Assembly: GCA_028819775.1 (NCBI GenBank)
Contig: JAPPKV010000389.1
Coordinates: 1 to 5,521 of the forward strand
Direction: 5' to 3'
DNA from: Gammaproteobacteria bacterium
GTDB lineage: Bacteria > Pseudomonadota > Gammaproteobacteria > Pseudomonadales > Azotimanducaceae_A
DNA: 5,521 nucleotides
Part shown: positions 33 through 5,521 of the stretch, in pieces
Numbering within the stretch: the stretch's first letter is position 1
Layout: each line of letters starts with the position of its first letter
Notes under the pieces: model-generated
Told to the model about the DNA's origin: nothing
Database searches by the model: none
Seen by the model: the letters and a program-made list of their open reading frames with translations, nothing else
Position numbers and translations under genes: made by a program

Positions 33-695
33 TTATAATGGGGCGCCTAACGCCCCCTGGCCGGGGGCTTTGGCGCCCGCGTCGACGTGGGTCACGGGCT
101 TGCCGATGAAGCGGTGCTCCGTTTCCTTTTTCAAGGGCGCATTCTCGGGAACCGGCAGCATTGCCGCTTGCGATGCGAGTTCGCCGTAGCCGAGACGGCG
201 ACCGCTCGCGGCGTGCACGACCTCGTGGTTGCCCGCGCTCACCGTGTCAACTGCAACGCCCCAGTGCTTGGCGGCGGCTTGGCGCAGCATGAGCCGGGCG
301 GTGGCACCGGCGGCGCGCAGCCGATCATAGTTCTGCGTGATGCTCCTCGAGCCGTCGGTGTTCTGATCCCCGTACTTGACGTCGCCCTGGGCCTGGACGA
401 CCTCGACGCGGGACCAGTCGGCATCCAACTCGTCGGCGATCACCTGCGTCAGCGCGGTGCGGATGCCCTGGCCCATTTCCGACCGGTGGACCGTCGCGCG
501 GACCGTGCCGTCGCCGTCGATGGCAAGCCACAGATTGGGAGCGAAGGTCGTGGGGGCAGCCGTCTGCCCTAGGGTGCGTTGGACCGGTAGGGATGCGCCC
601 AGCACGAGCACGCCGGACACGCCCAGGAACCGGCGGCGGGAGAACTCGGGGGAGAGGGAGGAGAGGGGTGAGAAATTGGCGATCGTGTCCATCAT
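33..695 (-). CDS. iorB: Isoquinoline 1-oxidoreductase beta-like molybdopterin subunit, N-terminal part only (Tat-exported)
   Basis: This is the catalytic large subunit of a xanthine-dehydrogenase-family molybdenum hydroxylase, which hydroxylates N-heterocycles or aldehydes and passes electrons to the IorA-type subunit. Residues 19-25 read SRRRFLG, a twin-arginine motif, followed by a hydrophobic stretch (26-38), so export in folded form is expected. The beta-subunit signature follows: EMGQG at 73-77, DELDADW at 88-94, DGSRSI at 114-119, then a helix with [12 protein letters not shown] at 126-137. Family members are about 700-780 residues; this frame stops at 220. Translation is family-like to about residue 212 ([10 protein letters not shown]) and then degenerates in homopolymer-rich sequence, so the stop at 33-35 may be a sequence-end artefact. 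Two consecutive ATGs (695-693 and 692-690) overlap the iorA stop. A strong GGAGGAG lies 4 bases before the first ATG and 7 before the second, so the second may be the true start. Family assignment is firm; exact substrate is unknown. Confidence 0.85.
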
Positions 696-1407: not shown

Positions 1408-1496
1408 CCGTAGGGGCGACGCTTGTCGTCGCCCGCATTGGGGTTGCCGGCACTTGATGCCGCTGCGGCGCGGACTCCTCGGCCCGTCCCCTACGG
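1408..1496. repeat. Inverted pair of GTAG-headed palindromes (REP/BIME-like element)
   Basis: The left unit is GTAG (1410-1413) followed immediately by a perfect 8-base hairpin, GGGCGACG (1414-1421), loop CTTGT, CGTCGCCC (1427-1434). The right unit is the same head in opposite orientation: CCCCTACGG at 1488-1496 is the exact reverse complement of CCGTAGGGG at 1408-1416. Its own stem is poor (GGAC/GTCC only, 1472-1475 with 1486-1489). A GTAG tetranucleotide followed by an imperfect or perfect palindrome is the hallmark of GTAG-class REP sequences, which are mobilised by RAYT transposases and often occur in inverted pairs. The TAG of the right head is also the stop codon of the upstream YjbR gene. 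Only one locus is visible, so dispersed repetition is inferred. The left hairpin has no T-tract on either side, so it is a weak candidate as an intrinsic terminator. Confidence 0.5.
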
Positions 1497-2261
1497 TTCC
1501 TCGAGAGCCTTCAACATGCGCTTCAAGGCGAAGTGGCGATAGCTCCCAAGGGCGAGTTCATGCACTTCGTCCCAGTCGATGGCGTCTTCCACGTCGAGGT
1601 CGATCCAACCCCGGTGTCCGATGTAGCGGGGGATGACGAAACGCGGATCGTCGGTGAGCGTGGCCTGAAGCTCTGGCCCGACCCAGAACTCCAGGCGCAT
1701 CCGACCCCCATGTCGAAACACGGTGAGGAACGTCTTCTTGCCGGCCTTGAACGCCGGTGTCCCGAATTGCCTGCCCTCGGAGGTTTCGGGTAGGGAGGCG
1801 ACGAAAGCGCGGAGATCGTCGAGCTTTTGCCGGGCATGGGGTGCCTGCAGCGGATCGAACTCCTCGGGATTCACCGCCTCCGTCGGTGGCTCGATGTCGA
1901 TGGGCTCGCCCAATTGCTTCATCAAACCCGCAGGGGCGACGTTCACGTAGGCTTCCCGAACGCGCGCGGCGATGGCGTACCAGTCGTTGCCTTGGTCGAG
2001 ATGCACGCCCAGCCAGCCTCTCGGTCCCACGTAGGGAGGTACGAAGTAGTAGTCGGGTTCGCCTTCGACATGCAGGTGCTGGGCACCCGGCGGTGCATGC
2101 ACCCATAGGGCGATGCGTCCATCGCCGTGATGGTTGATCGCCAGCATGGCGAACACCTTGCCGCCCACGCGGTAGTCCGGCATGCCGTGGCCGGTGCGTT
2201 CCTCGGCCCCGGGAAGCCGGAGGCAGACTTCCCTCACCGCGTCCTTGATGTTCTTGCCCAC
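1491..2261 (-). CDS. Tandem MmcQ/YjbR-domain (DUF419) protein
   Basis: This protein of 256 residues (from the GTG at 2261) is made of two consecutive YjbR/MmcQ-like domains, at about residues 4-118 and 147-256, joined by a Pro/Glu-rich linker. Both repeats start with the family helix and turn (VREVCLRLPGAEE; LRAFVASLPETSEG), continue with GMPDYRVGGKVF or GTPAFKAGKKTF, and carry matching PPYVGPRGW (75-83) and PRYIGHRGW (211-219) segments. The family has a CyaY-like fold, is often labelled DNA-binding, and has no settled biochemical role. Most members have one domain, so the duplication is notable. The frame extends to an ATG at 2381, but those 40 extra codons are Arg/Pro-rich, use rare codons such as CGA four times and resemble nothing in the family, so I chose the GTG. 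A weak promoter-like pair (TTGCGA/TACCGT, 17-base spacing, 2294-2322) lies just upstream and fits this start. Function is not predicted. Confidence 0.82.
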   Translation of the reverse strand: MGKNIKDAVREVCLRLPGAEERTGHGMPDYRVGGKVFAMLAINHHGDGRIALWVHAPPGAQHLHVEGEPDYYFVPPYVGPRGWLGVHLDQGNDWYAIAARVREAYVNVAPAGLMKQLGEPIDIEPPTEAVNPEEFDPLQAPHARQKLDDLRAFVASLPETSEGRQFGTPAFKAGKKTFLTVFRHGGRMRLEFWVGPELQATLTDDPRFVIPRYIGHRGWIDLDVEDAIDWDEVHELALGSYRHFALKRMLKALEEP

Positions 2262-2421
2262 GCCAATCGGTCGTCGAATCGTCGACAGCGGGGACGGTAG
2301 CCGATGACCGGGCCACTCGCAATCTCGCCTTCGTCCCGCTCCGGACAGGAGCTCAGGAAATCGTGATGCCGGGCGGGCCATCGGTTGTTACCCTCTCGGG
2401 GTGTGTGGTCGAGAGACAGCT

Positions 2422-4638
2422 ATGGCCGAGCCGACGTTTGCCATTTACTCGGACTCGAAGCTTCCGGGCTGGGCCGAGGGTTTCGCGGGGTTGCTCCGCG
2501 AGGGGCCAGCAGCCCAGATCAACATCGCGGGTAGCCTAGACGACGCCTTCGACGGCGATTCCGACGTGCTGGTATTGGACTTGGATTTCCGTCGCGACGA
2601 GAAACTCTCCGCCGAGAGGATTGCATCCCTGGGTCAGCGCCGGATCATCGCGATGGCGCCAGGGGCCGACTGGCTCTGTGGTCAACTCGACGAGATCGAG
2701 TTTAACGGCAGCAATGTGACAGGCGACCTGCCGATGCTCGTCGTCGACAGTGGCCTGTTGGGGAAGCGGTGGGCGGACGAGCCGATGCGGCCGTTCAGCA
2801 AAGTCCAGGACGCGCCATTGGCAGAGTGGACGCTGCAGACTCCGAGGGTCTATTTCTGCGCTGGCAATGTCGCCGAGTACCGTCCGGGCGTCGACTACAT
2901 CCTTGTTGCCGAGAAGCTTGAGACCTGTGCTGTCGTCGTCCGGCAAGCGAACTTCGTGTTCGCCGGTGTACAGGCGCATCCCGACGACTACTCTGAGGAA
3001 TACCGCTCGCTGATTCGGCGGGTGGCGTTTGCGCTCGCTGACCGTCCGATCGAAACGCTCGTCCCGATTGTCGTCGACCGTCAGGTCCATCCGCCGGGCA
3101 GTATCCGCTTCGACTTGAGCCCTGCTTCGTCCGGCGAGAACCGGCACCGGGTTTTCTATTTCCGTTTTGATCGTCCCACCGCATTCACGGCGACGTTGGA
3201 ACACACCGGGTCGGACGCCATGATGCTGCTGTTCGCGGGCGACAAGAAGGGCCTCTATTGGACCCGGCAGGACACCGAAGCCGGCAAGACCCTCACGGTC
3301 GCAGCCAACATCAGCGACGCCTCGATCCAGGCCCTCGGACATCGGTATTGGATGCTCAACGTAACGAACTTCGACGGCGACAACGGGGCGTCCGCGACGT
3401 TGACGGTTCGCTACGACGGCGCGGAATCGCAAGCGCCGATCCGCCCTCTGCCCGGCAACGCCGGGTTCGAACATCTGAACCGAGATGCGCAGAACCTTTT
3501 CGAGGCTGCACGCCTTGGTGATGCAACAGCGGTGGAACGGGTGGCACGCTTCGATTCGGCAGTGCGGCCCGCGCAGATGGAAAGGAACCTCGCAAGGCAG
3601 GTGACGGCCCGGGAACACGGCTTCGACAGTTGGGACATTCTCGACGGGCATCTCGCCTGGGAGTTGCCGGGTTCCCTGCCATCGGTGATGGCGTACGGTG
3701 CCGGCGACTTCTACGACCGGGGTGTCGCGCGGTATCGCGAATCGTTCTCCATCGCCGAGCTGGTGGAGTTGACCGGCGACTTCACGGAGGACGCCGTCGC
3801 CATGCTGACCTCGTCGTTTGCCCACGCAAGTGCGCGAGGCCATCGGTCCTTCACCGGCGAACACCTGTTGTCGGCGCTTTTGGACAACCCCGTGTCCATT
3901 CACGCGCTACATTCGGTCGGCTGCGACGTGGACCCATTGAGGCAGGAACTTCGCTCTTTTCTCCGGACGGTCCCCAGTGAAGCTCTCGATGGCGATGTCC
4001 AGGCATCAAGGGCGCTCTGTGGTGCGGTCTACCGCGCCAACTTCATCCCGACATTGGGCCGCGAAGGAACAAATCCCGCCAACCTTCTCGTGGGTCTTGC
4101 CGCCGAGGGAGGCGAGGCGGCGAAGGCGCTCGCAAGGCGGGGTGTGTCGCGCGGCGACCTCGTCAACTATGTCACCCATGGGATTGCTACCGAGTTGGCC
4201 GGGGATTCCGAACCGAACGCCTCGGTATTGGGCGCGGAACTTGAGCGAGCCGTGCACTTGGCTTTCCTATCCGCACGGTCGTCGCACCATGAACACCTCA
4301 CCATCGAGCACCTTTTGCTGGCCGTGCTTGGCGTAGACTTGGTGACGGACACGCTGCAGTTTCTTGGCGTGGACGCGGGCGAATTGGGGCGCGATCTGAC
4401 GAATTTCGTCGAGCAGGCGACACCGGTTGCGACTGTGGAGGGCCAGGCGCCGAGACCCACGCGCGCGTTCAACCGCATCATGCAGATGGTGGTCGCGAAG
4501 GCCCGCTCGAGCGAACGCTTCCAAGCTAGCACTCTCGACGCCCTGTGGGCGCTTTGCGGTGAGCGCGAAGTGCCCGTGGCGGACTTTCTCGAGCGCTACG
4601 GTGTAAGGCGCGCAGACGTGGCGGCGCGGATAGGCTAA
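2422..4638 (+). CDS. Multidomain protein with two ClpA-type N-terminal (Clp R) domains and no AAA+ ATPase
   Basis: This is a 738-residue protein. Residues 1-215 look alpha/beta, with strands such as DVLVLDLDF and an end segment VRQANFVFAGVQAHPDDYSEEYRSL read as segments around 173-196. That recalls ThuA/GATase-like folds, but I see no convincing catalytic Cys-His-Glu triad. Residues 222-331 are strand-rich and resemble a PPC-like beta-sandwich. Residues 354-411 carry LFEAARLGDATAVERV and TAREHGFDSW, a helical module usually found beside bacterial ankyrin repeats. Residues 455-587 and 604-738 are two Clp R domains: HRSFTGEHLLSALL and HEHLTIEHLLLAVL open them. The first closes with GVSRGDLVNYVTHG, very close to the end of the E. 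coli ClpA N-domain, which binds ClpS and substrates. No Walker A or B motif follows. No signal peptide or membrane segment is seen. The ATG at 2422 is preferred over the in-frame GTG at 2401; GAGAG lies 6 bases before it. The cytoplasmic role is unknown; protein-quality control or adaptor binding is an inference. Confidence 0.85.
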   Translation: MAEPTFAIYSDSKLPGWAEGFAGLLREGPAAQINIAGSLDDAFDGDSDVLVLDLDFRRDEKLSAERIASLGQRRIIAMAPGADWLCGQLDEIEFNGSNVTGDLPMLVVDSGLLGKRWADEPMRPFSKVQDAPLAEWTLQTPRVYFCAGNVAEYRPGVDYILVAEKLETCAVVVRQANFVFAGVQAHPDDYSEEYRSLIRRVAFALADRPIETLVPIVVDRQVHPPGSIRFDLSPASSGENRHRVFYFRFDRPTAFTATLEHTGSDAMMLLFAGDKKGLYWTRQDTEAGKTLTVAANISDASIQALGHRYWMLNVTNFDGDNGASATLTVRYDGAESQAPIRPLPGNAGFEHLNRDAQNLFEAARLGDATAVERVARFDSAVRPAQMERNLARQVTAREHGFDSWDILDGHLAWELPGSLPSVMAYGAGDFYDRGVARYRESFSIAELVELTGDFTEDAVAMLTSSFAHASARGHRSFTGEHLLSALLDNPVSIHALHSVGCDVDPLRQELRSFLRTVPSEALDGDVQASRALCGAVYRANFIPTLGREGTNPANLLVGLAAEGGEAAKALARRGVSRGDLVNYVTHGIATELAGDSEPNASVLGAELERAVHLAFLSARSSHHEHLTIEHLLLAVLGVDLVTDTLQFLGVDAGELGRDLTNFVEQATPVATVEGQAPRPTRAFNRIMQMVVAKARSSERFQASTLDALWALCGEREVPVADFLERYGVRRADVAARIG
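3784..4182 (+). other. First ClpA-type N-domain within the fusion protein
   Basis: This segment encodes about residues 455-587 of the fusion protein. It has the two-repeat helical layout of a Clp R domain: FAHASARGHRSFTGEHLLSALL, then LRQELRSFLRTV, then a second half with NPANLLVGLAAEGGEAAKALARRG. It ends with VSRGDLVNYVTHG, matching the ClpA ending VSRLDVVNFISHG in most positions. In ClpA an AAA+ module would follow; here a second Clp R domain follows instead. Confidence 0.78.
4231..4635 (+). other. Second ClpA-type N-domain within the fusion protein
   Basis: This segment encodes about residues 604-738, the C-terminus of the fusion protein. It opens with LERAVHLAFLSARSSHHEHL and continues TIEHLLLAVLG, the most recognisable ClpA-like match in the window. 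It then has LGRDLTNFVEQATP and a second half with FNRIMQMVVAKARSS. The closing helix YGVRRADVAARIG is more diverged than in the first copy and lacks the His-Gly ending. The protein stops directly after it, so no ATPase module is attached. Confidence 0.82.
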
Positions 4639-4645
4639 CGACAGG

Positions 4646-5521
4646 ATGGCACCCTTGCCCCCGAACAGACCCATCGTCGAACGCTTGGTCGACGGTCCCA
4701 TCGTCTCCCCCGCCTCCCATCCGAGCATCGGGGTCAACATCCAGGGGCCGTCGCTGGTGCGCGTCCCGGATTGGGTCGAGTCGCCACTCGGGCGCTACTA
4801 CCTCTATTTCGCCGATCACAAGGGACGCTACATCCGGCTCGCGTACGCGGATCGGCTCACGGGTCCCTGGGCGATACACGTCCCGGGCGCGCTGCGTCTC
4901 GAGGACACGCCGTTTCCCCACGAGCCGCCCGAGATCCCGACGGAACAGTTGCGTATTGCCGAGAGCCTTCGCGAAGCGTCGGGCCCGCCGATCCTGCACA
5001 GTGCGTCTTACGAGATGTCGACGCCGCATATCGCATCGCCGGACGTGCACGTCGACGCGACCAATCGCCGTTTCGTCATGTACTACCACGGTCTGGAAGG
5101 GCCGGGACGACAGGTCTCGCGGGTCGCCGTATCCGGCGACGGGGTGGCATTCGAGTCGGGCACGGAGATCCTAGGCCGCACGTACATGCGGGTATTCCGC
5201 TACCGAGGCATGACGCATGCCCTGGCCATGCCGGGCCAGTTCTACCGCTCGACCGATCCGCTGGGTGGTTTCGAGGAAGGACCGCGGCTTTTCAATCCGG
5301 ACATGCGCCACGCCGCGGTGATGCGTCGCGGCGACACGCTCGTCGTGTTCTGGACACAAGTGGGCGATGCGCCGGAGCGTATCCTGCTATCCACGGTCGA
5401 CCTTCGAGGCGACTGGATGGCTTGGACGGAGTCGGACCCGGTGGAGGTACTGCGCCCCGAAAGAGCTTGGGAAGGCGCCGATGCGCCGCTAGAGCCTTCC
5501 GTACGCAGCGTTGCCTATGGG
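4646..5521 (+). CDS. Five-bladed beta-propeller protein, GH43-like glycoside hydrolase (3' end beyond the window)
   Basis: An open frame of 292 codons runs from ATG 4646 to the last base without a stop, so the gene is partial. It resembles bacterial five-bladed beta-propeller proteins related to GH43/GH32-type glycoside hydrolases. Characteristic repeats are GPSLVRVPDW at 34-43, YYLYFADHKGRYIRLAYAD at 51-69, SPDVHVD at 131-137, RFVMYYHG at 142-149, QVSRVAVSGDG at 156-166, RVFRYRG at 182-188 and DAPERILLSTVDL at 242-254. Each blade seems to hold an aromatic-rich strand pair. No signal peptide is visible at this start (MAPLPPNRP). Only 7 bases separate it from the fusion gene's stop, and the AGG directly before the ATG is a poor ribosome-binding site, so translational coupling is likely. 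Catalytic acids cannot be assigned with confidence, and the substrate, or even enzymatic activity, is not established. Confidence 0.8.
   Translation, partial: MAPLPPNRPIVERLVDGPIVSPASHPSIGVNIQGPSLVRVPDWVESPLGRYYLYFADHKGRYIRLAYADRLTGPWAIHVPGALRLEDTPFPHEPPEIPTEQLRIAESLREASGPPILHSASYEMSTPHIASPDVHVDATNRRFVMYYHGLEGPGRQVSRVAVSGDGVAFESGTEILGRTYMRVFRYRGMTHALAMPGQFYRSTDPLGGFEEGPRLFNPDMRHAAVMRRGDTLVVFWTQVGDAPERILLSTVDLRGDWMAWTESDPVEVLRPERAWEGADAPLEPSVRSVAYG

Follow-up and report, generated by a model that had tools for sequence, protein, structure and literature searches.

The window, a 5,521-nucleotide stretch of gammaproteobacterial DNA, encodes a protein that ends in two Clp_N domains and has no motor (Table 1). 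A first-pass annotation had proposed tandem ClpA N-domains separated from any AAA+ unfoldase, and we confirmed this observation, while its interpretation was supported in part. The domains are real and show conservation; domain 2 clearly belongs to the ClpA type. The Clp_N family match and the Clp fold were found in the window protein by profile search, PDB sequence search and structure prediction. For residues 455–738, the segment to which the annotation had assigned the fold, the Clp fold was predicted with confidence; the protein modeled was P0001, the first row of alignment A1, which differs from the window protein by one residue.

Table 1. Positions of the features discussed, counted from the first nucleotide of the window
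Feature	Positions	Strand	Basis
Motorless tandem Clp_N protein, 738 aa, whole gene	2422..4638	+	
Residues 1–210, putative flavodoxin-like, class I GATase/ThuA-like fold; Ala79 at the would-be nucleophile Cys site; conserved His186-Pro187	2422..3051	+	Strand/helix order, Foldseek; weak profile match
Residues 211–335, putative PPC-like beta-sandwich	3052..3426	+	
Residues 345–415, helical module with GFxxWxxLxxH	3454..3666	+	
Residues 451–590, Clp_N domain 1; C-terminal end ClpA-like NYVTHG; R, E, S, G at the four ClpS-contact sites	3772..4191	+	
Residues 601–738, Clp_N domain 2, ClpA-type; E624, E629, T680, R685 kept	4222..4635	+	
Downstream gene, weakly GH43-like, 7 bp past the stop, cut off by the window end	4646..5521	+	
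Divergent upstream neighbor with two YjbR stretches	1491..2282	−	

Architecture of the window protein and its relatives

A protein search recovered 73 relatives with 46–100% identity (group A), lying above a drop in score to ClpA proteins that were matched over the N-domain. With a query from G002 contig 498, we obtained 64 more, paralogous proteins (group B), of which 61 had a precomputed Clp_N assignment and three (P0159, P0183 and P0184) did not. The reported lack of Walker motifs held throughout: the Walker A pattern was present in 0 out of 73 group A and 0 out of 64 group B proteins versus 47 out of 47 ClpA proteins. In the window protein, a Pfam profile search produced no match to AAA families, and the NCBIfam ClpA model matched over its N-domain part only. 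The product is best read as a multi-domain, soluble protein that lacks a motor and probably also lacks catalytic activity. Six proteins (P0159, P0069, P0071, P0073, P0183 and P0184) were considered as alternative C-terminal fusions and rejected, as they look truncated or frame-shifted.

In the predicted structure, the order of strands and helices in residues 1–210 fits a flavodoxin-like domain, with a beta-sandwich next. Foldseek searches with the whole model retrieved two structures that contain glutamine amidotransferase domains: 8hx6 at E 2.6e-5, albeit with an rmsd of 24 over 476 columns, and 5tw7_B at E 1.1e-3 with an rmsd of 5.3 over 224 columns, neither match being localized on the model. 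Residues 1–345 were also modeled alone, using five rows; that model was of poor quality (pLDDT 57), and its matches count little; 3afg_B, whose matched part we take to be a PPC-like domain, ranked second for this model among other beta-sandwiches. Profiles did not bear out the GATase, ThuA and PPC assignments suggested for the front half: a scan of 70 members with an E limit of 1 yielded 18 Pfam families, none of them GATase (PF00117), ThuA (PF06283) or PPC (PF04151), and in the window copy no Pfam family matched the front half at that threshold. Comparison by hhalign with domains from the carrier genomes yielded matches of motif length for GATase (E 0.065, 15 columns), ThuA (E 0.12, 20 columns) and PPC (E 0.016, 19 columns). 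All 50 VIA rows listed were taken by Clp_N and none matched the front half, a result that excludes nothing.

We placed the would-be nucleophile at residue 79 from its strand position. This residue is Ala, Gly, Ser or Asp in group A, and columns 76–85 contained no Cys in 70 group A rows (with three to six gaps each) and 54 group B rows. A Cys at position 86, in the next helix, was common (51/70 in group A and 49/54 in group B). Because no Cys occurs at or around the expected nucleophile position, these alignments indicate that the front half, if derived from a GATase, is very probably a dead one. No segment of the protein is better conserved than the putative beta-sandwich at residues 211–335, which has a mean identity of 0.64. 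The helical module at residues 345–415 had been missing from the first-pass description, and group B paralogues carry an extra copy of it at their N-terminus. The family PF20066 (Glyoxalase_8, N-terminal helical part) weakly matched 16 out of 70 members (best E 0.0014, its place in the protein not given) and passed the cut-off on the N-terminal copy in the group B protein P0137, at residues 11–81.

Clp_N ancestry and ClpS-contact residues

Domain 2 shared 36% identity with the E. coli ClpA N-domain (rmsd 1.4), and its PDB sequence matches included ClpA (2.7e-18) and ClpC2 (8b9o, 0.00026, across residues 550–665); alignment showed it to be without the C-terminal SHG of ClpA. Domain 1 alone had ClpC as its top PDB sequence match (2y1q, 0.011) and contained a conserved patch with the consensus GAVYRANFIxALGREGTNAANLL. 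We built a domain tree of 79 rows, taking every fourth or fifth family row and no ClpC rows. Domain 1 of groups A and B joined (100/99), closer to the ClpA rows than to the two host ClpB rows; group A domain 2 made up one side of a branch, and group B domain 2 did likewise except for one long row. Based on this grouping, the tandem seems to predate the split of groups A and B.

In a passage of PMC12493166, Glu23, Glu28, Thr81 and Arg86 are given as ClpS-contact residues of E. coli ClpA; passages of PMC9663308 and PMC5515868 do not name contact residues. Alignment placed window residues E624, E629, T680 and R685 at E23, E28, T81 and R86, respectively, so that domain 2 has all four residues in common with the E. 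coli ClpA N-domain, whereas window domain 1 has one out of four. Alignment A1 comprised all group A proteins except P0028, P0071 and P0073, 70 in total, and a length filter left 69 segments of domain 1 and 63 of domain 2; for group B, we used the 54 out of 64 proteins longer than 690 aa. All four residues were identical in 47 out of 47 ClpA proteins. In domain 2, the full set was present in 18 out of 63 group A and 36 out of 54 group B copies, rising to 20/63 and 49/54, respectively, when conservative exchanges were allowed; in domain 1, it was present in 0/69 and 0/54.

Taken site by site (E23, E28, T81 and R86, respectively), domain 2 kept 25, 43, 63 and 51 out of 63 residues in group A and 50, 39, 51 and 50 out of 54 in group B. 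The corresponding numbers for domain 1 were 22, 63, 3 and 0 out of 69 and 0, 50, 3 and 0 out of 54, with T81 and R86 lost in nearly all copies of both groups. The weak point of group A domain 2 was E23, lost in 38 out of 63 copies and replaced by Lys in 20. Arg86 was also present in two out of two host ClpB N-domains and is therefore partly generic.

As a background, we used 92 sites conserved in 22 ClpA rows, 21 of them from related genomes (several being identical copies) and one from E. coli. Mean retention in domain 2 was 0.72 at the four contact sites versus 0.38 at the background sites in group A (P 0.035) and 0.88 versus 0.34 in group B (P 0.004), the two groups not being independent tests because of their shared ancestry. 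With the 38 fully invariant ClpA sites alone as background, the P values for domain 2 weakened to 0.18 (A) and 0.016 (B). Domain 1 retention, at 0.32 (A) and 0.25 (B), was not above background. This residue pattern supports, but does not prove, the idea that domain 2 docks ClpS and that the two domains divide their labor.

Five carrier genomes related to the window genome (G001, G002, G453, G468 and G439) were surveyed for the N-degron machinery. All five contained ClpS, the Leu/Phe-transferase of the N-degron pathway and, beside ClpS, a Clp_N-bearing frame of 758–774 aa that was provisionally assigned to the ClpA type from Clp_N, length and ClpS adjacency. Two named metagenome-assembled genomes (MAGs) had ClpS adjoining the ClpA-type frame (759 and 774 aa) and contained ClpB-type frames too; the three other carriers had ClpS beside a Clp_N-bearing frame of 758–771 aa and also a frame matching ClpB in length. 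Thus, related carriers have Clp_N without AAA+ alongside a separate unfoldase-type gene. In G439, clpS lay 159 kb from the motorless gene; elsewhere the two genes were on different contigs. Because both ClpS and ClpA occur widely in Gammaproteobacteria, finding them in the carriers is weak evidence. The first-pass annotation had also suggested that the protein could present substrates to ClpAP; a free N-domain is not known to dock on ClpAP, so this role would need ClpS or another bridge.

G001 also encodes a second motorless receiver (contig 107, L015 3620–4939), a protein of about 400 aa with Clp_N and a ClpX C4-type zinc finger and without an AAA family match. A database search found 27 proteins of this family, its own included, of which 12 had a precomputed Clp_N assignment. 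Each of the five carrier genomes also contained at least one short frame (241–305 aa) that bears two ClpX-type zinc fingers and could not accommodate a whole ClpX (G001:C98, G002:C103, G453:C127, G468:C46 and G439:C1); G439 had three of these and G453 two.

Distribution, neighborhood and tempo of change

Group A members were found in two named gammaproteobacterial MAGs, RHO1_bin_53 and COS4_bin_45. We take the names RHO1 and COS4 to resemble those of a coral-reef sponge data set, and on that basis they suggest that the carrier MAGs are sponge-derived. In a sample of 390 genomes from the order of G001, with at most two candidates scored per genome and sorted by E-value, only G001 rose above the level of ClpA N-domains among the matches listed. 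A sample of 100 genomes from the family gave four matches at E 1e-35 or better, and the trait looks confined to a narrow lineage. A plasmid search returned 11 records, matching ClpA N-domains only, and PADLOC returned nothing for four proteins. Two group B genes, OXH15_07245 and OXH15_07250, lie on one contig with neighboring locus numbers. Another group B paralogue (G001 contig 1, L016 4022–6471) spans two overlapping frames and is disrupted in this assembly; intact relatives exist.

A GH43-like gene followed the Clp_N gene in all five group A loci that show its 3' end (the window, L018, L047, L048 and L002), with gaps of 7, 7, 7, 9 and 7 bp, respectively. The partner has 330 residues where complete. 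Its Pfam match to GH43 was sub-threshold (E 0.22 for the window copy and 0.0068 for the L018 copy), and we found no solved relative of the L018 copy below E 0.5. No such partner was found in the stretches covered around the genes of group B and of G439 (L016, L007 and L049; L007 ends near the gene). A YjbR-type gene adjoined the Clp_N gene in the window, L018 and L047 and lay about 3.7 kb upstream in L048. We considered a natural split of the gene in L048 and rejected it, as the apparent break sits at a run of N. At the window edge, a molybdopterin subunit frame (33–695, minus strand) ends early near a GC-rich stretch, and L018 has a long frame at this place; the early end may be an assembly end.

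The Clp_N gene differed from its neighbors in tempo. Between the window and L018, L047 and L048, protein identity was 87–88% for the partner and 84–93% for YjbR versus 59–62% for the Clp_N protein. The ratio of second-position to fourfold-site differences, uncorrected and divided from rounded figures, was about 0.35–0.42 for the Clp_N gene (four window pairs), 0.11–0.14 for the partner and 0.07–0.23 for YjbR (three pairs); the Clp_N ratio was thus roughly two to five times that of its neighbors and about three times that of the partner. For the window and L002, fourfold differences were 0.26 in the Clp_N gene versus 0.45 in the partner, with protein identities of 79% versus 87%. The partner tree joined L047 and L002 (bootstrap 99 of 100), whereas the tree of the Clp_N gene set the window and L002 against the others (100). 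Given the low protein identity, the rate ratios and the discordant trees, the Clp_N gene seems to change fast in protein and to be exchanged among relatives within a stable neighborhood. Metagenome assembly could contribute to this pattern, although each comparison lies within one contig.

Known motorless Clp proteins and possible functions

Motorless Clp N-domain proteins are already known. Plant chloroplasts have ClpT1 and ClpT2, each a single domain that binds the ClpP/R core and has no extra domains; the window protein shares their motorless state and has added domains. Mycobacterial ClpC2 is described in PMC10030653 as a partial ClpC1 homologue without AAA+ that has a dimerizing N-terminal domain and binds DNA. 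Unlike ClpC2, the window protein has two Clp_N domains, the second of ClpA type, plus GATase-like and beta-sandwich parts. Repeated ClpN domains apart from a Clp ATPase likewise occur in ClpN-vWA fusions of FtsH ternary conflict systems, which sit in vWA/FtsH/ubiquitin-like operons (PMC7159879); no such operon genes were identified among the neighbors scanned. E. coli ClpA has its N-domain at the N-terminus, followed by the D1 and D2 ATPase domains, whereas the Clp_N pair of the window protein is C-terminal and has no D1/D2. Neither a ClpA-type tandem behind a pseudo-GATase and a beta-sandwich nor a natural ClpA competitor for the N-degron adaptor was found in the open-licence PMC literature, surveyed mostly at listing level.

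The first-pass annotation had allowed that the homologues might be ClpA or ClpC paralogues whose ATPase was split off nearby. A split or decayed ClpA, its ATPase lost by a frameshift or stop, has nothing in its favor beyond the Clp_N domains themselves and is extremely improbable. We rejected it: for 61 out of 73 group A proteins the alignment covers at least 90% of the query, the next gene is GH43-like and not AAA+, a full-length clpA-type frame lies elsewhere, beside clpS, in all five carriers, and third codon positions of the Clp_N gene change most, as under purifying selection.

With less than even confidence, we tentatively favor a reading in which the ClpA-type N-domains are docking modules, with domain 2 engaging ClpS, domain 1 and the front half engaging something else, and the whole protein tethering or titrating ClpS. 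Domain 2 would compete with ClpA for ClpS, whether or not the adaptor is loaded with an N-degron substrate; domain 1 may hold another partner through its own conserved patch; and the pseudo-GATase and beta-sandwich may recognize a client or ligand. As a net effect, N-degron degradation would be tuned or redirected under some condition. It is also possible, though we hold it with some reserve, that the Clp_N pair is a recruited peptide- or protein-binding scaffold with no link left to ClpS or ClpAP, acting jointly with the GH43-like partner and with whatever ligand the GATase-like/beta-sandwich half binds. The nearby partner gene (7–9 bp away in all five loci), the frequent loss of E23 in group A domain 2, the absence of the SHG end and the fusion of ClpN repeats to other proteins in conflict systems (PMC7159879) all point that way. 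A scaffold role, however, gives no reason for domain 2, unlike domain 1, to have retained the ClpS-contact residues, in group B at a level above background. In addition, no partner gene was found in the stretches covered around the genes of group B and of G439.

We consider it unlikely that the protein is a sponge or decoy protecting ClpA. In that role, its free N-domains would soak up a toxic ligand directed against the ClpA N-domain, such as a peptide natural product or a protein from a phage or competitor. ClpC2 offers a precedent, acting against cyclomarin A in mycobacteria (PMC10030653). The apparent sponge origin of the carriers is consistent with such a role, and a protein that changes faster than its neighbors, with a tree discordant with that of the adjacent gene, is as expected of a gene in conflict. 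However, fast change may be mere relaxed constraint, and a simple sponge has no need of a 450-residue front part or of a divergent domain 1. To our knowledge, there is no such ligand for ClpA-type domains, which also counts against a decoy.

More broadly, and doubtfully, this probably sponge-associated lineage of Gammaproteobacteria may run a set of fast-evolving, allele-shuffling motorless Clp receivers, comprising the ClpA-type tandems with their paralogues and the Clp_N/ClpX zinc-finger family. By catching clients of ClpAP and ClpXP or their adaptors, these receivers would reshape regulated proteolysis. The pseudo-GATase half would sense a client or ligand, and antagonistic pressure may be at work. 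If domain 2 of the window protein binds ClpS, the protein would be a natural ClpA competitor for the N-degron adaptor, and thus a control point of ClpAPS, as well as a ready reagent to block N-degron degradation. The ClpC2 idea would then be broadened to domains of the ClpA type and to Gammaproteobacteria.
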